Position numbers and translations under genes: made by a program. The notes below the pieces were generated by a model. That model searched no databases, was not told where the DNA came from, and saw only the letters and a list, made by a program, of their open reading frames with translations. 64,000 bases of DNA, from contig NW_024881701.1 in the NCBI RefSeq assembly GCF_019059575.1, positions 434,001 to 498,000 of the forward strand, in the 5' to 3' direction. The stretch is from Amphibalanus amphitrite. Lineage: Eukaryota > Arthropoda > Thecostraca > Balanomorpha > Balanidae. This document shows, in pieces, positions 510 through 45,565 of this stretch. Position 1 is the stretch's first letter. Each line of letters opens with the position of its first letter.

Positions 510-970
510 TCGTTCTACACCAAATCGTTTCTACACCCAATCGTTCAACTTGACGATTGAACTTGAATAAATTATAAGTCGTGTCTGCGTCCGTCAGCCT
601 TATGTGTCTTAATGCGCCGGAACGGCGCCGCGTATCGACGTGAAATTTACTGGGCACAAACTTTGGGTGGGGCGGACCATCGTATCAAAAGATGGGCGCA
701 ATCGGACCAGGGGTGCGGCGTCAGCGCGTGCATCTCTGCCCCAGGCTGGCTGAGGCCGGCGCCGAGCAGAGAGCACGCGCTTTAGGCTCAGTTGTTCGCT
801 TAAAAAACTGAGTGAAAAGCATCAGAGCCGGGAGGTCGTTGACCTTTGACAACAAAGGCCGACACAAGGCACCGCTCGCCAAGAGGATTCGCCAGTAAAT
901 ACAATTAATTTGTTTTTGCAATATCTCAGCCGTTTCTTGGCCGATTTAGCTGAAACTTGGACTGTCGGTG
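510..970. other. Stretch between the repeat flank and the TAGGG array, no gene seen
   Basis: It starts with short repeats of a TTCTACACC phrase (about 500-545), followed by unremarkable sequence. Only short open frames occur, with no recognisable protein. Confidence 0.4.
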
Positions 971-22333: not shown

Positions 22334-22536
22334 GCGATCCAGTATGAAAAGAGCATGGGTCCCGAAAATTCTTCAGAAACTAGAGAAATTATCGCGGCCA
22401 CCGGCATTTGGGCGATCTGCTCGTGCTTTTGTTACTGGAGCGCCTCACTGGAGCGAATTTCTCTAGAGTTCTCGTAGATAATTTCTCTAGTTTCTGAAGA
22501 ATTTTCGGGACACATGCTCGTTTCATACTGGATGCG
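22334..22536. mobile_element. Hairpin-forming element, ~60-bp inverted arms
   Basis: The left arm (22334-22393) and right arm (22477-22536) are nearly exact inverted copies around an 83-bp loop. CCCGAAAATTCTTCAGAAAC is matched by its reverse complement on the right. Such fold-back units are usual for MITE-class DNA. A second small hairpin (20-bp arms around GTGAGTGAGAGATAA) lies at about 22740-22780. Confidence 0.65.
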
Positions 22537-22540
22537 AATA

Positions 22541-23047
22541 TATGCAAGGCACACATCCTCAACGCAAGACACATTTTTCGGGACGAGAAATAGAATATCT
22601 TTGCCTAAGGTGATCGTTGGGCTGTAAAAGCTCCTGATTTATGCTCGTCTCAGCCCAAGCTACGGAACTGCTATTCCAGTTCAAAACCCATGTTAAAATG
22701 TGAACTATTTCCTATGAATTGTGTTGTGAGATAAGTCATTGTGAGTGAGAGATAAGTCATTATCTCTCACTCACAATGGCTCTCCAATAGGCATTCAGCT
22801 TTCTGACGGCTTCACCTTTGCTAGCAGTAATTGTTGTGAACGAACAAATACATCGTAAGCAATGGGTCTAAAAGCATGGGTTAAAAAAGACCATGTTTTA
22901 AAAAATGCTCGCAGGTACGAATTGCTAGTCAATCCCTCGGCACAGACAACAAAATACTAAATTGTTTGTCGTGCTTAAAAACTATAAAACGACTTTGTAT
23001 ATCCCTCAGTTTTCCTTTTCTGAAGTAAATGAGTTATTGCATTCATG
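22541..23047. other. Spacer between hairpin and foldback element
   Basis: Apart from the small hairpin near 22740-22780 I see no gene or repeat. Confidence 0.35.
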
Positions 23048-23056
23048 ATTGTTCAT
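23048..23056. repeat. Target site duplication, left copy
   Basis: ATTGTTCAT, exactly repeated at 27830-27838, on the outer edges of the foldback element. Confidence 0.85.
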
Positions 23057-23189
23057 ATGTGCATGAAGTTGGCATCGGATTCGGATTCGTATTCAGCGTC
23101 GAGTACCGAATCACTTGAAAACGTCATATCTGGTCAATTCGGGGACGGGGAGCACGAATATGACATTAATTTTGCCCTAGCAGGTATCC

Positions 23190-26100
23190 CTTATCCCTTA
23201 ATCGTCCCTTAAACGACGGGGCGCGCCAAAAGTGCCTCAGGGGCTCTTCCGATCACGAAAATAATGGTCCCAGGCGATTCCCCGGGTCGATATCTAGCCG
23301 CACCACCACTAACTTCACACGTGCCTCATATCCCTTATCCCTTAATCGTCCCTTAAATGACGGGGCGCGCCAAAAGTGCCTCAGGGGTTCTTCCGATCGC
23401 GAAAATAATGGTCCCAGGCAATTCCCCGGGTCGATATCTAGCCGCACCACCACTAACTTCACACGTGCCTCACATCCCTCATCCCTTAATCGTCCCTTAA
23501 ACGACGGGGCGCGCCAAAAGTGCCTCAGGGGTTCTTCTGATCGCGAAAATAATGGTCCCAGGCGATTCCCCGGGTCGATATCTAGCCGCACCACCACTAA
23601 CTTCACACGTGCCTCATATCCCTCATCCCTTAATCGTCCCTTAAACGACGGGGCGCGCCAAAAGTGCCTCAGGGGTTCTTCCGATCGCGAAAATAATGGT
23701 CCCAGGCGATTCCCCGGGTCTATATCTAGCCGCACCACCACTAACTTCACACGTGCCTCATATCCCTTATCCCTTAATCGTCCCTTAAATGACGGGGCGC
23801 GCCAAAAGTGCCTCAGGGGTTCTTCCGATCGCGAAAAGAATGGTCCCAGGCGATTCCCCGGGTCGATATCTAGCCGCACCACCACTAACTTCACACGTGC
23901 CTCATATCCCTTATCCCTTAATCGTCCCTTAAATGACGGGGCGCGCCAAAAGTGCCTCAGGGGTTCTTCCGATCGCGAAAAGAATGGTCCCAGGCGATTC
24001 CCCGGGTCGATATCTAGCCGCACCACCACTAACTTCACACGTGCCTCATATCCCTTATCCCTTAATCGTCCCTTAAATGACGGGGCGCGCCAAAAGTGCC
24101 TCAGGGGTTCTTCCGATCGCGAAAAGAATGGTCCCAGGCGATTCCCCGGGTCGATATCTAGCCGCACCACCACTAACTTCACACGTGCCTCATATCCCTT
24201 ATCCCTTAATCGTCCCTTAAATGACGGGGCGCGCCAAAAGTGCCTCAGGGGCTCTTCCGATCGCGAAAATAATGGTCCCAGGCGATTCCCCGGGTCGATA
24301 TCTTGCCGCACCACCACTAACTTCACACGTGCCTCATTTCCCTTATCCCTTAATCGTCCCTTAAATGACGGGGCGCGCCAAAAGTGCCTCAGGGGTTCTT
24401 CCGATCGCGAAAATAATGGTCCCAGGCAATTCCCCGGGTCGATATCTAGCCGCACCACCACTAACTTCACACGTGCCTCACATCCCTCATCCCTTAATCG
24501 TCCCTTAAACGACGGGGCGCGCCAAAAGTGCCTCAGGGGTTCTTCCGATCGCGAAAAGAATGGTCCCAGGCGATTCCCCGGGTCGATATCTAGCCGCACC
24601 ACCACTAACTTCACACGTGCCTCATATCCCTTATCCCTTAATCGTCCCTTAAATGACGGGGCGCGCCAAAAGTGCCTCAGGGGTTCTTCCGATCGCGAAA
24701 ATAATGGTCCCAGGCAATTCCCCGGGTCGATATCTAGCCGCACCACCACTAACTTCACACGTGCCTCACATCCCTCATCCCTTAATCGTCCCTTAAACGA
24801 CGGGGCGCGCCAAAAGTGCCTCAGGGGTTCTTCTGATCGCGAAAATAATGGTCCCAGGCGATTCCCCGGGTCGATATCTAGCCGCACCACCACTAACTTC
24901 ACACGTGCCTCATATCCCTCATCCCTTAATCGTCCCTTAAACGACGGGGCGCGCCAAAAGTGCCTCAGGGGTTCTTCCGATCGCGAAAATAATGGTCCCA
25001 GGCGATTCCCCGGGTCTATATCTAGCCGCACCACCACTAACTTCACACGTGCCTCATATCCCTTATCCCTTAATCGTCCCTTAAATGACGGGGCGCGCCA
25101 AAAGTGCCTCAGGGGTTCTTCCGATCGCGAAAAGAATGGTCCCAGGCGATTCCCCGGGTCGATATCTAGCCGCACCACCACTAACTTCACACGTGCCTCA
25201 TATCCCTTATCCCTTAATCGTCCCTTAAATGACGGGGCGCGCCAAAAGTGCCTCAGGGGTTCTTCCGATCGCGAAAAGAATGGTCCCAGGCGATTCCCCG
25301 GGTCGATATCTAGCCGCACCACCACTAACTTCACACGTGCCTCATATCCCTTATCCCTTAATCGTCCCTTAAATGACGGGGCGCGCCAAAAGTGCCTCAG
25401 GGGTTCTTCCGATCGCGAAAAGAATGGTCCCAGGCGATTCCCCGGGTCGATATCTAGCCGCACCACCACTAACTTCACACGTGCCTCATATCCCTTATCC
25501 CTTAATCGTCCCTTAAATGACGGGGCGCGCCAAAAGTGCCTCAGGGGCTCTTCCGATCGCGAAAATAATGGTCCCAGGCGATTCCCCGGGTCGATATCTT
25601 GCCGCACCACCACTAACTTCACACGTGCCTCATTTCCCTTATCCCTTAATCGTCCCTTAAATGACGGGGCGCGCCAAAAGTGCCTCAGGGGTTCTTCCGA
25701 TCGCGAAAATAATGGTCCCAGGCAATTCCCCGGGTCGATATCTAGCCGCACCACCACTAACTTCACACGTGCCTCACATCCCTCATCCCTTAATCGTCCC
25801 TTAAACGACGGGGCGCGCCAAAAGTGCCTCAGGGGTTCTTCCGATCGCGAAAAGAATGGTCCCAGGCGATTCCCCGGGTCGATATCTAGCCGCACCACCA
25901 CTAACTTCACACGTGCCTCATATCCCTTATCCCTTAATCGTCCCTTAAATGACGGGGCGCGCCAAAAGTGCCTCAGGGGCTCTTCCGATCGCGAAAATAA
26001 TGGTCCCAGGCGATTCCCCGGGTCGATATCTAGCCGCACCACCACTAACTTCACACGTGCCTCATATCCCTTATCCCTTAATCGTCCCTTAAATGACGGG

Positions 26101-26347
26101 GCGCGCCAAAAGTGCCTCAGGGGTTCTTCCGATCGCGAAAATAATGGTCCCAGGCAATTCCCCGGGTCGATATCTAGCCGCACCACCACTAACTTCACAC
26201 GTGCCTCACATCCCTCATCCCTTAATCGTCCCTTAAACGACGGGGCGCGCCAAAAGTGTCTCAGGGGTTCTTCTGATCGCGAAAATAATGGTCCCAGGCG
26301 ATTCCCCGGGTCGATATCTAGCCGCACCACCACTAACTTCACACGTG
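23190..26347 (-). repeat. 144-bp satellite, left arm, with 9-unit higher-order period
   Basis: About 22 units. Unit variants recur in the same order every 1,296 bp (nine units). For example TCTTGCCGCA appears at 24301 and 25597 instead of the usual TCTAGCCGCA, and the rare GGGTCTATATC appears at about 23717 and 25013. This shows that blocks of nine units were duplicated together. Confidence 0.9.
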
Positions 26348-27700
26348 ATTAAGGGATAAGGACGATTAAGGGATAAGGGATATGAGGCACGTGTGAAGTT
26401 AGTGGTGGTGCGGCAAGATATCGACCCGGGGAATCGCCTGGGACCATTATTTTCGCGATCGGAAGAGCCCCTGAGGCACTTTTGGCGCGCCCCGTCATTT
26501 AAGGGACGATTAAGGGATAAGGGATATGAGGCACGTGTGAAGTTAGTGGTGGTGCGGCTAGATATCGACCCGGGGAATCGCCTGGGACCATTATTTTCGC
26601 GATCGGAAGAGCCCCTGAGGCACTTTTGGCGCGCCCCGTCATTTAAGGGACGATTAAGGGATAAGGGATATGAGGCACGTGTGAAGTTAGTGGTGGTGCG
26701 GCTAGATATCGACCCGGGGAATCGCCTGGGACCATTCTTTTCGCGATCGGAAGAACCCCTGAGGCACTTTTGGCGCGCCCCGTCATTTAAGGGACGATTA
26801 AGGGATAAGGGATATGAGGCACGTGTGAAGTTAGTGGTGGTGCGGCTAGATATCGACCCGGGGAATCGCCTGGGACCATTCTTTTCGCGATCGGAAGAAC
26901 CCCTGAGGCACTTTTGGCGCGCCCCGTCATTTAAGGGACGATTAAGGGATAAGGGATATGAGGCACGTGTGAAGTTAGTGGTGGTGCGGCTAGATATCGA
27001 CCCGGGGAATCGCCTGGGACCATTCTTTTCGCGATCGGAAGAACCCTTGAGGCACTTTTGGCGCGCCCCGTCATTTAAGGGACGATTAAGGGATAAGGGA
27101 TATGAGGCACGTGTGAAGTTAGTGGTGGTGCGGCTAGATATCGACCCGGGGAATCGCCTGGGACCATTGTTTTCGCGATCGGAAGAACCCCTGAGGCACT
27201 TTTGGCGCGCCCCGTCATTTAAGGGACGATTAAGGGATAAGGGATATGAGGCACGTGTGAAGTTAGTGGTGGTGCGGCTAGATATCGACCCGGGGAATCG
27301 CCTGGGACCATTATTTTCGCGATCAGAAGAACCCCTGAGGCACTTTTGGCGCGCCCCGTCGTTTAAGGGACGATTAAGGGATGAGGGATGTGAGGCACGT
27401 GTGAAGTTAGTGGTGGTGCGGCTAGATATCGACCCGGGGAATCGCCTGGGACCATTATTTTCGCGATCGGAAGAACCCCTGAGGCACTTTTGGCGCGCCC
27501 CGTCATTTACTTTTGGCGCGCCCCGTCATTTAAGGGACGATTAAGGGATAAGGGATATGAGGCACGTGTGAAGTTAGTGGTGGTGCGGCTAGATATCGAC
27601 CCGGGGAATCGCCTGGGACCATTATTTTCGTGATCGGAAGAGCCCCTGAGGCACTTTTGGCGCGCTCCGTCGTTTAAGGGACGATTAAGGGATAAGGGAT
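26348..27700 (+). repeat. 144-bp satellite, right arm
   Basis: About nine units opposite in direction to the left arm, sharing its unit variants. A small internal duplication of about 24 bp (the TTTTGGCGCGCCCCGTCATT region) lies at about 27487-27533. Confidence 0.85.
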
Positions 27701-27829
27701 ACCTGCTAGGGCAAAATTAATGTCATATTCGTGCTCCCCGTCCCCGAATTGACCAGATATGACGTTTTCAAGTGATTCGATACTCGACGCTGAATACGAA
27801 TCCGAATCCGACGCCAACTTCACGCACAT

Positions 27830-27838
27830 ATTGTTCAT
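27830..27838. repeat. Target site duplication, right copy
   Basis: ATTGTTCAT, identical to 23048-23056. Confidence 0.85.
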
Positions 27839-28019
27839 CATAAGACAAAAATTTAAATTCATATTTGATCAGACCCAACTTTTTTTTTTTAAATTTAGTC
27901 TTCCCGGCATGCCTAAGGCAACCGCCAGGGAAGGGGAAATTACTAAGGCTGGCAATGAGCCAGATCTTTCGTTTTACTTTACTTTACTGTCAGCTTTACT
28001 GCTCAGATACCCTAAGTTA

Positions 28020-29445
28020 CCCGATTTATGTGATTTTCACCCGATCGCTCTCGGAAGGTTTAGTTCCAAGCGCCTGGAAGAGATCCACTGTTGTTCCGCT
28101 GTTTAAGAAAGGTAGTCGCTATGACCCTCTCAATTATAGGCCAGTGAGTCTCACTGCTGTGTGTTGCAAAACGTTGGAGCGCCTTATTGTGAAGCACATC
28201 TACTCGTATTTAGAAGCCAACGAACTACTGTCTGTTCACCAGTTCGGGTTTAGACAGGGTAGATCCACGATGGAGCAGCTTATTCTTGTATATGAGGATA
28301 TCTCAGCCAAAGTAGATGCAGGGCAAACAGTGGATCTTGTGCTTTTTGATTATTCAAAGGCTTTCGATGTAGTATGCCACCAAGTTTTGCTTACAAAACT
28401 AGAACTCATAGGCATTAAAGGTCAACTTTTATCATGGATCTCTTCTTTTCTCTCTGACCGTCTGATGCAAGTGTGTGTTAATGGACTTAACAGTAGCACC
28501 AGAAATGTCTACAGCGGTGTTCCACAAGGCTCCGTGTTGGGACCTTTGTTGTTCTTAATTTATATTAACTTTATAGGTTCTAAACTGTCCTGTTGTTACA
28601 AAATATTCGCCGACGATTTAAAATTGTACGCTTCAGTTACTGCTAACTCGATGTCGAATCCCCACACTGATGGAGTGTTACAGAATGACATTGATGTGCT
28701 GCACAAGACATCTGTGTCTTGGGGCTTGAGGATGAACAAGGAAAAGTGCGTTGTGTTACGTTTTTCCCGCAAATCTAAAAATCAGTCTGTTCCTATGTAT
28801 ACTATGGATGGAACTCCACTTCCTGTGTGCCGTTCACAACGCGATTTAGGTGTATTAGTTGATGTCTCGTTAAAGTTCCATGATCATATTGCTTCTGTGG
28901 CTCATAAGGCTTCTGGATTGTCTTATAATTTTGCTAAATCTACGGTATGTCGTTCTCGAGACTTTATGTTGTTTTTGCTTAAGACGCACATAAGACCTAT
29001 ACTGGAGTACGCTTCCTGTGTGTGGTGTACAGGCTTCATTGACGACATGCGTAGGCTTGAAGGCGTTCAGCGCAGATGGACAAAGCAGATAGAAGGCCTT
29101 GAGAATCTGACCTACTTGGAGAGGCTGAAGGAACTGGACCTATTCTCAGTGCAAGGGCGCCTTCTTCGTGCTGATCTCATTGAATACTGGAAAATTTTCC
29201 ATGGGAAGAGTTCAATTGCCCCTGGGAATATGTTCGTTCAGCCTCTACATCGGGGAACGCGTGGACATAGTTTAAAGATTCATGTGTCGCGCACTCTATC
29301 TGACCTGCGTCAGCGCTCTTTCTCGCAACGTAGAGTCACTGTGTGGAACAGCCTGCCAGATGATGTCGTGACTTCAGTAGATGTATCCACATTTAAACGG
29401 CTGCTGGCCAGAACGTTAGGCGATCTGCTATATGATTATGTTTAG
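28020..29445 (+). CDS. Reverse transcriptase of a 5'-truncated non-LTR retrotransposon (LINE)
   Basis: About 475 residues of recognisable LINE reverse transcriptase and C-terminal part, open to the stop at 29443-29445. Motifs in order: WKRSTVVPLFKKG and NYRPVSLT (fingers), HQFGFRQGRSTMEQL, LVLFDYSKAFDVV (motif A with its catalytic Asp), SGVPQGSVLGPLLFLIYIN (motif B) and FADD at 28606-28617 (motif C catalytic pair). The C-terminal region has CVWCTGF and ends FKRLLARTLGDLLYDYV. The upstream endonuclease and ORF1 are missing, so this is the usual 5'-truncated copy. The open frame extends back to 27865, but that part looks like unrelated sequence. The style suggests a CR1/jockey-group element, not settled by eye. 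The copy is uninterrupted, hence young. It lies on the other strand from the neighbouring ORF1, so the two are not one element. Confidence 0.9.
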
Positions 29446-30209: not shown

Positions 30210-31622
30210 CTAGTGGTTACCCGTTGGAGGAATTCTCTGAAGGAAGATACGGCGTCCGTGGTGAGGGGGTCCGTCAAAATAGAAGCCAGCCACGGCTGCC
30301 CTGTACGCTTTGGATTCTGGGCGAAGGTCAAGGTCGTATAGTCGGATTTCATGGTCAAACCAGTAGAGGGTGGAGGGAGGGTAGGAAAGTCGCCTGCCGC
30401 TGGCGTACTCAAACTTCAGCGACCCGATGTCAGGTGGAGGGATCTCACCCCTGGGACGTCTCTTCGGGATCAGGTCTGGATCGGGATCGTCGGTGTCGTT
30501 TCGGGGGCTGTCAGGCTGGAAGCTCGCCGTGTAGCCTCGGGTGAACGGCCTGCTTCGAGAGCAGCCGAAGTCGTCGGGGTCCGTGGTTGGTGTCGGTGAG
30601 TCGGGGGTGTCAGTCTGGACTTCGGCAGAGACCAGTCGGGCGGGTCGAGTTTGAGAGGTCGAGTCGAAGGTGGTCAGTTTGGTCGTTTGGGTGCTGGCGT
30701 CGGTCGTCTGAGAGCTGGCTGTCTCGGTCTGGGTCTGAACAGGGACTGCGGTCGCGTTAGGGGCCATGACCTCACCATCTGTCTGGACAGAGGCGTCTGT
30801 GCGAGCCGGAGGGGGCTGCATCGTTCGGTGCTGACTCTCAAGTGGAGGCCAAGCTGTGGAGTTGAGCGGCGGGGGTTGGAATGGCGCTCGCTCTCGAGTG
30901 TCTCGTTTGGTGGTTTTCCAGACGGGGCAGCTGTTTCGGTCCCATGCTGGGTGTGGACCAGAGCAGAGAGGGCACTTTGGGACCGAGGTACAGTCACCTG
31001 TGGGGTGGCTGTCCCTGGCAGAGCACTGCCCGCAGACTGTCTCTTTTCGTCGGCAAGAGCGCATAGAGTGGCCTAGCTTCCAGCACCTACGGCATTGCCT
31101 TGGCAGCTGGATCCAGGGTCGAACAGGGACGGAGAGGTACCCGCAGAGGAGCTTTCTTGGGAGATCGAGTCCTTTAAAGCGAAGTCGAATCAGGGGGTTT
31201 GGAGTTCGATCCTTGGATTTGAGCCTCTGCACCTCGATAACACCCTGCGGGGCTAGTTCGGTGAGGAGCTCTTCGTCAGAGAGGTCGCTGAGGTCCGGAC
31301 AGTGAATGAGACCCTGCGATGACATCAGGTTGGTTGCAAGAACAGCCGAAACAGGTTTTCCGAGCATGGTTTGGCAGGAGAGAAGGGCAGAGCTTTGGTC
31401 TTTGTTGAAGGTCGAGATGAGAATTTTGCCAGATCCGAGTTGTTTGGTTTTTTCGACTTCCGAGTCACAGATCGAGCGGATTTCCCTGATGATGGCGAAC
31501 GGGTTCCCTCGCAGTGGAGTGCCATCAGGCCGGCTCATCAGGATGAGAGCGCGGCCTTCTGGTGGGTCAAGGTCGGGTGGGAGACGCGCCCCTGGAGGCG
31601 GTCCGGTCGAGTCCATGGCCAT
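30210..31622 (-). CDS. LINE ORF1 (gag-like nucleic-acid-binding protein with three zinc knuckles)
   Basis: A 470-residue intact frame starting at the ATG at 31620-31622. Residues about 40-170 look like the RNA-binding region that precedes the knuckles in jockey/I-type ORF1 proteins. Three cysteine knuckles follow at about 177-237: CRRCWKLGHSMRSC (CX2CX4HX4C), CGQCSARDSHPTGDC and CPLCSGPHPAWDRNSC. The middle is Pro/Thr/Gln rich with repeats of the VQTD and SSQTTDASTQTT kind. The end is KAYRAAVAGFYFDGPP. Such proteins coat the element RNA. ORF2 should follow on the minus strand below 30210 and is absent; the reverse transcriptase at 28020-29445 is on the opposite strand. The copy is therefore 3'-deleted, gag-only or co-opted. 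Confidence 0.85.
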   Translation of the reverse strand: MAMDSTGPPPGARLPPDLDPPEGRALILMSRPDGTPLRGNPFAIIREIRSICDSEVEKTKQLGSGKILISTFNKDQSSALLSCQTMLGKPVSAVLATNLMSSQGLIHCPDLSDLSDEELLTELAPQGVIEVQRLKSKDRTPNPLIRLRFKGLDLPRKLLCGYLSVPVRPWIQLPRQCRRCWKLGHSMRSCRRKETVCGQCSARDSHPTGDCTSVPKCPLCSGPHPAWDRNSCPVWKTTKRDTRERAPFQPPPLNSTAWPPLESQHRTMQPPPARTDASVQTDGEVMAPNATAVPVQTQTETASSQTTDASTQTTKLTTFDSTSQTRPARLVSAEVQTDTPDSPTPTTDPDDFGCSRSRPFTRGYTASFQPDSPRNDTDDPDPDLIPKRRPRGEIPPPDIGSLKFEYASGRRLSYPPSTLYWFDHEIRLYDLDLRPESKAYRAAVAGFYFDGPPHHGRRIFLQRIPPTGNH

Positions 31623-31903
31623 GATCGGGGTCTGTTACAGGCAAAGATAAATAGTCCGTCTCAATGGTAAGCACTTAGCAGAGCTTTGTGCGTACTGCAC
31701 AGTGCACATGCCATTATTTCGCCAGATTTGCCTTTGGGAAGCCGTACTTCCACCGATTGCCGACTGCGGATGTTCCCAACCTCAATACACCTACCCTGGT
31801 TCCCACCAACCCCGCCCCATTCCCGCCAGTGCTTCCATCCCCAGCGAGCTCTTCGTCAATCTGCTGCTGGCAGTCAAATATTCGGCCGTGCCGGATATGC
31901 TGC

Positions 31904-36372: not shown

Positions 36373-36650
36373 AGTCTTGAATATGTTTCAACGCTAACTT
36401 GAGAGACATTGTAACAAATAGTAAGAAAATTAACCTCACTCTCATTCTATCTAAAAGTAAATTCCGGATTCGAAATAAAACAAACTTTTTGAGAAGCTTT
36501 CGGCATTGCGCCATCATCAGCTCTGCTGATGATGGCGCAGAGCTGATGATGGCGCAATGCCGAAAGCTTCTCAAAAAGTTTGTTTTATTTCGAATCCGGA
36601 ATTTACTTTTAGATAGAATGAGAGTGAGGTTAATTTTCTTACTATTTGTT
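36373..36650. mobile_element. Insertion containing a perfect 112-bp inverted repeat, beside AMMECR1 exon 1
   Basis: Arms 36411-36522 and 36541-36652 are exact reverse complements by my base-by-base check, separated by an 18-bp spacer that itself repeats the inner arm end (CTGATGATGGCGC). A 15-bp direct repeat, ACAAATTGGCGACAC, lies at 36358-36372 and 36651-36665 and may be a target duplication; its right copy overlaps the arm end by two bases. The left arm lies about 60 bp from the AMMECR1 splice acceptor. Perfect arms imply a recent origin. Confidence 0.85.
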
Positions 36651-36848
36651 ACAAATTGGCGACACCTTCAAATTAAGGGAACAGCTGTCCATAGGTAGAA
36701 GCTACAATGCTAACAAAGCGAGTTATGCAGGTGAGATAGACAGCATTCTTTTTTATGGTTTGTCTACATCAGACTTCAAAATGCTGTGATCACAGCCAAG
36801 GTAATAAAAAGATTCCTGCATATAATTAAGACCTGTAAATTTGAAGTA

Positions 36849-45410: not shown

Positions 45411-45565
45411 GGACGCCGGTGAAAACAGGGCGCCGGAGGGCATATTAGTCACGTGACATTTGGAGCTTCTCCCCCCTCCAAGGGCCTTCAAGATGCTAAA
45501 TGTCACGTGTGAATTTCACGAACCTTGATCAAATCGCCCCAGGCGCCCTGTTTTCACCGTCGTCC
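45411..45565. mobile_element. 155-bp MITE with 24-bp inverted ends and 8-bp duplication
   Basis: The ends start GGACG(C/A)CGGTGAAAACAGG and differ at one of 24 positions. CACGATTC flanks both sides (45403-45410, 45566-45573), an 8-bp duplication as in hAT-type elements. CACGTG occurs in each half. It lies about 840 bp upstream of the formin start codon. Confidence 0.85.

Follow-up and report, generated by a model that had tools for sequence, protein, structure and literature searches.

Foldback (FB) elements of Drosophila are transposons with arms of tandem repeats, 9-bp target duplications, and short repeat units. Tm1 of root-knot nematodes is described in similar terms, with tandem-repeat foldback arms, 9-bp duplications, and units of 13 to 15 bp (PMC3169594), and Tetris of Drosophila virilis as a non-autonomous foldback with a flanking domain, 220-bp units in its inverted arms, 8- to 10-bp duplications, and no transposase found (PMC4079207). 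Among Mutator-like elements (MULEs), Muta1 and its relatives in Aedes aegypti are reported with 8- to 9-bp duplications, terminal inverted repeats (TIRs) of ~145 bp, tandem repeats near the ends, and hundreds of non-autonomous derivatives (PMC5225508). The Rehavkus group is characterized by 9-bp duplications, a PHD-finger transposase, and satellite before the 3′ TIR (PMC6446971; PMC10218199); its member Rehavkus-1_TC of Tribolium castaneum (9.5 kb) is reported to have inverted termini with a 164-bp satellite unit, mostly 5 and 8 monomers (PMC10218199). Here, we report a foldback element with arms of 144-bp units in a 64,000-nucleotide stretch of Amphibalanus amphitrite DNA (NCBI RefSeq assembly GCF_019059575.1, contig NW_024881701.1, positions 434,001 to 498,000, forward strand; hereafter, the window). 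We read it as one copy of a young, non-autonomous cut-and-paste foldback family, most likely driven by a transposase of the Mutator superfamily, perhaps of its Rehavkus branch, and put the probability of this reading at roughly 0.85.

The element occupies positions 23057 to 27829 and is flanked on both sides by an exact 9-bp target duplication, ATTGTTCAT (23048 to 23056 and 27830 to 27838, forward strand). Within the window, this 9-mer is found at these two places only and its reverse complement is absent, and both copies directly abut the inverted ends. A preliminary description of this DNA had given the exact duplication on both sides; random pairs of window positions shared a 9-mer in 9 of 200,000 draws. 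That description gave the unique inverted ends as ~133 bp; the ends are there, at a length of 128 bp (left, 23057 to 23184, forward strand; right, 27702 to 27829, reverse strand), with 3 mismatches between them, and the left one carries G7A and G18A relative to the commonest family sequence. Behind them, the left arm (23185 to 26352, forward strand) holds 22 full tandem 144-bp units and the right arm (26383 to 27701, reverse strand) ~9.2 units facing it, with one internal 23-bp duplication (27486 to 27532). Only 30 bp of unit fragments (26353 to 26382), where the two facing arrays join, lie between the last full units, which bears out the earlier picture of ~22 plus ~9 opposed units with almost no middle. 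Counted inward from the two ends, the units of the arms correspond position by position and carry the same variants in almost identical order; their summed difference is 12, against a permutation mean of 27.6, and 18 of 20,000 permutations reached so low a value. Between neighboring units of the left array, 0 to 6 bases differ, except for 9 in the last pair, and units 2 to 10 (23329 to 24624) equal units 11 to 19 (24625 to 25920) without any difference; this 1,296-bp duplication may have arisen by exchange very recently, or else in the assembly.

The element shares tandem-repeat foldback arms and 9-bp duplications with FB and with Tm1 as described, and differs from both in that their units are short. 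The preliminary description singled out a unit far longer than the FB repeats; at 144 bp this holds, but long foldback units were already published, at 220 bp for Tetris and 164 bp for Rehavkus-1_TC. Tetris, according to its description, is alike in its non-autonomous foldback form and in the long tandem units of its inverted arms, and differs in having a middle and inner domains, 3 structurally complete copies, and derived satellite arrays (PMC4079207), whereas here there are 44 paired elements, no middle, and no free arrays seen. The description of Rehavkus-1_TC (PMC10218199) offers the other close likeness, with inverted termini bearing long-unit arrays, an arthropod host, and the 9-bp duplications of its group; the present element has no middle, tens of units, and no transposase recognized in the copies read. 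Judged by the published description of Rehavkus alone, satellite at both ends is a further difference. The Muta1 group, as reported, has 9- to 15-bp repeats inside a short TIR, and autonomous copies are known (PMC5225508). Among the titles and starts of abstracts listed in literature searches, which covered neither subscription journals nor Repbase, no crustacean family of this kind was seen. To our knowledge, the new points are the large number of arm-only elements, the repeated different centers, and the fact that distant families have kept both the length of the unit and the placement of its motifs.

The assembly (807.6 Mb; 2,644 contigs) was searched with a 28-nt end pattern at up to 3 mismatches, with the reversed pattern as control. 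Ends of what is here called family 1, of the ATGTSCGTGAAGTTGGC type, numbered 91 (46 on one strand, 45 on the other; control, 0) and form 44 convergent pairs and 3 single ends, so that the genome holds 44 copies or more. Copies are denoted by C numbers and retrieved loci by L numbers; the single ends are C74, C1243, and C2134, the last lying near a contig end with the same flank as C947. Eighteen copies, including that of the window, were read through (C119 and C114 in two adjacent pieces each); C19b was read at its two ends, and 25 further copies at theirs. Exact 9-bp duplications flank 40 of the 44 paired elements (17 of 19 plus 23 of 25) and comprise 39 distinct sequences, because C16a and C16b share flank and duplication. 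As a descriptive count, the duplications are weakly biased, with G or C at position 1 in 32 of 39, and T and A the commonest bases at positions 4 and 6, respectively. Over their 128 bp, 30 of the 36 ends of the read copies are identical, and the six that differ include the truncated right end of C374; family 1 is a young family. Facing arrays were found in every read copy but the truncated C374 (17 of 18). Across 36 elements in which no insert is known, lengths range from 3,059 to 11,630 bp, with a median of ~6,566 bp; 23 of the 36 were assessed by their end coordinates only.

For 39 insertion sites, the two flanks were joined and compared with the loci already retrieved. The joined flanks of C7 match L114 straight across the insertion point (97.7% over 128 bp, with one copy of the 9-mer), and more diverged spanning matches were obtained for C119 in L114 (81.5% over 108 bp), C85 at window positions 748 to 894 (79.7% over 148 bp), and C65 in L048 (79.5% over 185 bp); shorter or weaker ones are those of C3 in L048, C119 in L050, and C7 in L010 and L024. 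A match for C11 was discounted, since it is to that copy's own flank locus. The uninterrupted sites are related repeat copies, mostly diverged, and not alleles. Tandem-repeat inverted arms (17 of 18 read copies), target duplication, and element-free sites are all features of the Foldback class. The preliminary description proposed a foldback transposon and named other copies with different 9-bp duplications and an empty site as what to look for; the pairs, their duplications, and the uninterrupted sites supply all three.

Two arrangements of copies deserve mention. In C16, adjacent copies at 454911 to 463760 and 467236 to 474124 (L033 and L034) have identical near flanks and the same duplication, one of them with an extra insert, and represent either a segmental duplication or an unmerged haplotype. 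In C19 (1612552 to 1682647), two family-1 ends stand 70 kb apart with the same flanking 9 bp, CGGTAAATG; from the 10 kb at the right and the short piece at the left that were read, the pair may be a nested or composite insertion or a misjoin.

A 17-nt end pattern (up to 2 mismatches) gave 903 matches against 66 for its reversed control, so the clan is larger than family 1. Family-2 ends, which read ATGTCCGTGAAGTTGGC, numbered 137 (control, 0). In family 2, C12 (L048) shows an exact duplication and inverted ends, and its facing arrays are built of a 143-bp unit and separated by another insert; exact duplications were present in all four family-2 elements checked (C12, C5, C13, and C21), and 2-kb samples from the middles of 12 family-2 intervals (10 to 28 kb) were 77 to 100% unit array in 12 of 12. 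The ends of the two families align without gaps (77 of 122 positions identical), and beyond the first 20 bases the alignment scores 73 (shuffles, 21.7 ± 6.7; maximum, 51 of 500). The units also align, with a score of 74 (composition-preserving shuffles, 42.7 ± 6.1; maximum, 63 of 200). Two unit motifs, GACGGGG...AAAAGTGCC and TCTAGCCGCAC, are identically placed in both families, with starts at 159 bp (GACGGGG-type) and 238 bp (CTAGCCGC) from the end of the element; elsewhere the sequences have largely diverged. A third, damaged copy (C5:1002389) with a similar end has the motifs at 158 and 230. An architecture common to so distant a sister family argues for a real transposon, of a kind already known in part, rather than an assembly error. 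In the family-2 arrays L121, L127, and L130, pieces of the terminal repeat occur internally as extra units.

From these sequence comparisons, we tentatively suggest, at well below even odds, that the 143- to 144-bp unit is a working part of the transposon and not a passenger satellite, each unit binding the transposase or a host protein, with unit length selected to stay near nucleosome size. If so, elements that carry units by the tens, with perhaps up to ~190 of them in the longest intervals of family 2, would be mobile arrays of binding sites. The conserved motifs could instead be merely the best-kept parts of a homologous unit.

The full units of the 18 read copies number 700 and fall into 118 haplotypes. 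Arms were compared over up to 8 units in 17 of these copies: left and right arms of the same element differ on average by 1.85 per unit, against 2.64 with right arms shuffled among elements, and none of 20,000 shuffles was as low. For C340, C124, C119, C79, and C3, no foreign arm is closer than the copy's own. Read visually, the centers of 17 copies fall into nine junction types. One is common to the window, C287, and C119, with the opposite orientation in the window; another to C304, C193, C124, C122, C3, and, mirrored, C114; a third to C16a and C16b; and C340, C120, C79, C65, C19a, and C6 have a private junction each. Arm lengths can be very unequal (5 and 34 units in C65; 33 and 6 in C6). 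From the nine types among 17 copies, we infer that the middle was lost repeatedly by joining of one array to the other, after which subfamilies would have spread by transposition while arm length drifted.

The history that would account for family 1 runs as follows. The ancestor probably carried ~144-bp units in arrays inside each of its ends, with a gene-bearing middle. A transposase made elsewhere in the genome would recognize the 128-bp ends, and insertion would duplicate 9 bp of target. Loss of the middle, many times over, through joining of the two inverted arrays would leave all-arm elements, whose arm lengths would then shift by unequal exchange or slippage, and exchange within the element may keep the arms of one copy alike.

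Further peculiarities were seen within the arrays. C340 (497502 to 506130; L016) has three inversions, with ~9, 31, 11, and 8 units in alternating orientation, and its two plus-minus junctions mirror each other, as if a foldback had been duplicated inside itself. Stretches of non-array DNA longer than 300 bp occur in 6 of the 18 read copies (C193, C124, C119, C114, C16a, and C374). Inserts of ~1 kb within unit arrays (L033, 2785 to 3750; L019, 3040 to 4220; L035, 1192 to 2101) are bounded by TTAA with runs of G/C; the unit arrays themselves contain TTAA.

The transposase is probably of the Mutator superfamily, perhaps of the Rehavkus branch, which is favored because the 9-bp duplication, long inverted ends, and arrays fit its descriptions. 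A duplication of 9 bp in 40 of 44 elements falls within the 8 to 11 bp of MULEs, and the 9-bp duplication, a TIR of 128 bp (within 26 to 400 bp), and satellite by the terminus agree with Rehavkus as published (PMC6446971). The preliminary description called the family Mutator-like; the lengths of duplication and TIR fit, whereas no MULE transposase was found in a listed element and no family ends at 12 MULE loci taken with 1.5-kb flanks. For these comparisons, PF10551 (MULE) was searched genome-wide (150 of 204 candidates scored; 111 hits), and the hits were compared visually with all 91 ends of family 1 and with those 100 of the 137 ends of family 2 that were listed.

Several results weigh against the reading of family 1 as a Mutator-driven foldback family. 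None of the 111 PF10551 hits lies inside a listed element, and the nearest one noted is on the inward side of the unpaired end C1243, 28 kb away. Merlin-type hits (PF12762; 28 of 28 candidates scored) numbered 21, and none of these was inside a listed element by visual comparison. Of the 26 other family-1 elements, most were read only partly or at the ends, and a gene in them would have escaped notice. A survey of arthropod MULEs describes conserved G/C in the first three TIR bases, as a tendency and not a definition (PMC13359780); the ends here begin ATGTGC or ATGTCC and do not have such a G/C-rich start. Four of the 44 pairs are without an exact duplication: C79 (2 of 9 positions differ), C19a (6), C1155 (4), and C984 (8). 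In C122, C120, C19a, C6, C16a, and C16b, 9 to 16 of 32 foreign arms are closer than the copy's own. Finally, family-1 unit and end have no mutual similarity detectable against shuffles, whereas the end and unit of Tetris, as described, share a 37-bp stretch (PMC4079207); derivation of the unit from the end, as in Tetris, was accordingly rejected.

No transposase was recognized in the 18 read copies (frames scanned, partly visually), nor was a PHD-finger transposase in the copies read, and no genome search for PHD fingers was made. Samples from element middles, taken in search of an autonomous copy, are arrays in C2192, C468, and C7, hold a reverse transcriptase in C947, and are partly array in C712. 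The scanned frames of C119 are retroelement-like (zinc knuckle, reverse transcriptase), and its 937-codon frame looks so by eye. One of three frames in C114 is Rft-like (Pfam Rft-1; L025, 6797 to 7204), lies in foreign DNA inside the element, and recurs at 27 genomic places with at least 90% identity over at least 94 residues; it is therefore part of another multi-copy element inserted into C114. Part of a host gene (Rft-1) thus seems to be carried by that element.

Another superfamily with 8- to 9-bp duplications (Merlin, or a Galileo-like relative of P) might supply the transposase instead, which we consider unlikely. Galileo duplications are 7 bp and those of Merlin often 8 bp, whereas 40 of 44 here are exactly 9 bp. 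Merlin-type sequences do exist in this genome, as counted above, but outside the listed elements. Galileo is, by its description, a precedent for foldback arms outside Mutator and for binding sites in arm repeats (PMC3688188).

Less probable still is that a pre-existing free satellite was captured and is now spread by the transposon. The units are tandem and homogeneous, as such an origin would have them, but the unit can be aligned between families 1 and 2 and begins nearly as far from the end in one family as in the other; it thus predates their split. A genome-wide search with a 39-nt unit core found 1,933 cores (948 and 985 by strand; control, 0). Of these, 746 are in the 18 read copies, and ~975 are predicted from the lengths of 23 others, assumed to be arrays throughout; the remaining ~210 are plausible for C712, C947, C19b, C74, C1243, and C2134. 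Among the unit-core matches listed, all positions are in the elements C3, C6, C7, and C11. The elements can account for the cores, with no clear surplus outside them and no sign of free satellite arrays: none were seen in the unit counts for this assembly, which may lack heterochromatin, and small ones are possible. The preliminary description had suggested that the element could seed satellite arrays; this was not seen, and the cores are explicable by the elements themselves.

That the locus is a tandem array misjoined to its own reverse complement is scarcely credible: the exact 1,296-bp duplication, the very similar units, which assemblers mishandle, and the three inversions of C340 would suit such an artifact, but 17 of the 18 copies read likewise have facing arrays bounded by paired ends, duplications are exact at 40 of 44 pairs, and junctions are common to copies at different sites.

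As a young foldback family, these copies amount to a natural experiment on the relation between transposon and satellite, with dozens of near-identical insertions whose unit variants record duplication, inversion, and exchange, and with a second family that reveals which parts of the unit are kept. With them it could be tested whether the arm repeats of foldbacks serve as binding sites, a point that the authors on Galileo describe as untested for Foldback and Phantom elements (PMC3688188).

Other readings of the end and unit were rejected. The TIR has an open reading frame starting at the ATG of its first base, and the translated family-1 and family-2 ends look alike; mismatches between the families are even over the three codon positions (16/13/16) and Pfam returned nothing, so the TIR is not taken as coding. 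On each strand, one unit frame stays open across the whole array, and a frame of 1,029 codons results; the 18 variant types comprise 9 silent and 9 residue-changing ones (two to stop), and the open frames were taken as chance. The Pfam match of the array frame to PPK2 rests on a summed score, with no single stretch passing. Neither ends nor units fold better than shuffles (z, −1.35 and 0.23), and hairpin formation was dropped. Two exact patterns had 0 matches in viral collections, where a 17-nt end pattern found 7 stretches; these match the end over only 17 to 27 bp and were attributed to chance. Scanning the window for Rfam families and tRNAs gave nothing.

Elsewhere in the window, a small inverted-repeat element lies to the left of the main one (22334 to 22545), with a possible 9-bp duplication, AAGGCACAC (offsets tried), and another at 45411 to 45565 has an exact 8-bp duplication, CACGATTC. 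A perfect 118-bp inverted repeat with a 10-bp loop occupies 36409 to 36654. An open reverse-transcriptase frame runs from 27844 to 29442, and a 470-codon frame on the other strand (30213 to 31634), with no Pfam hit, looks by eye like a retroelement nucleic-acid-binding protein. The gene content seen comprises F-box/SPRY, aldehyde dehydrogenase and SCP2 exons, and a reverse transcriptase, as fits an animal, and a 1.4-kb array of the 5-base repeat GGTAG extends from 970 to 2360.

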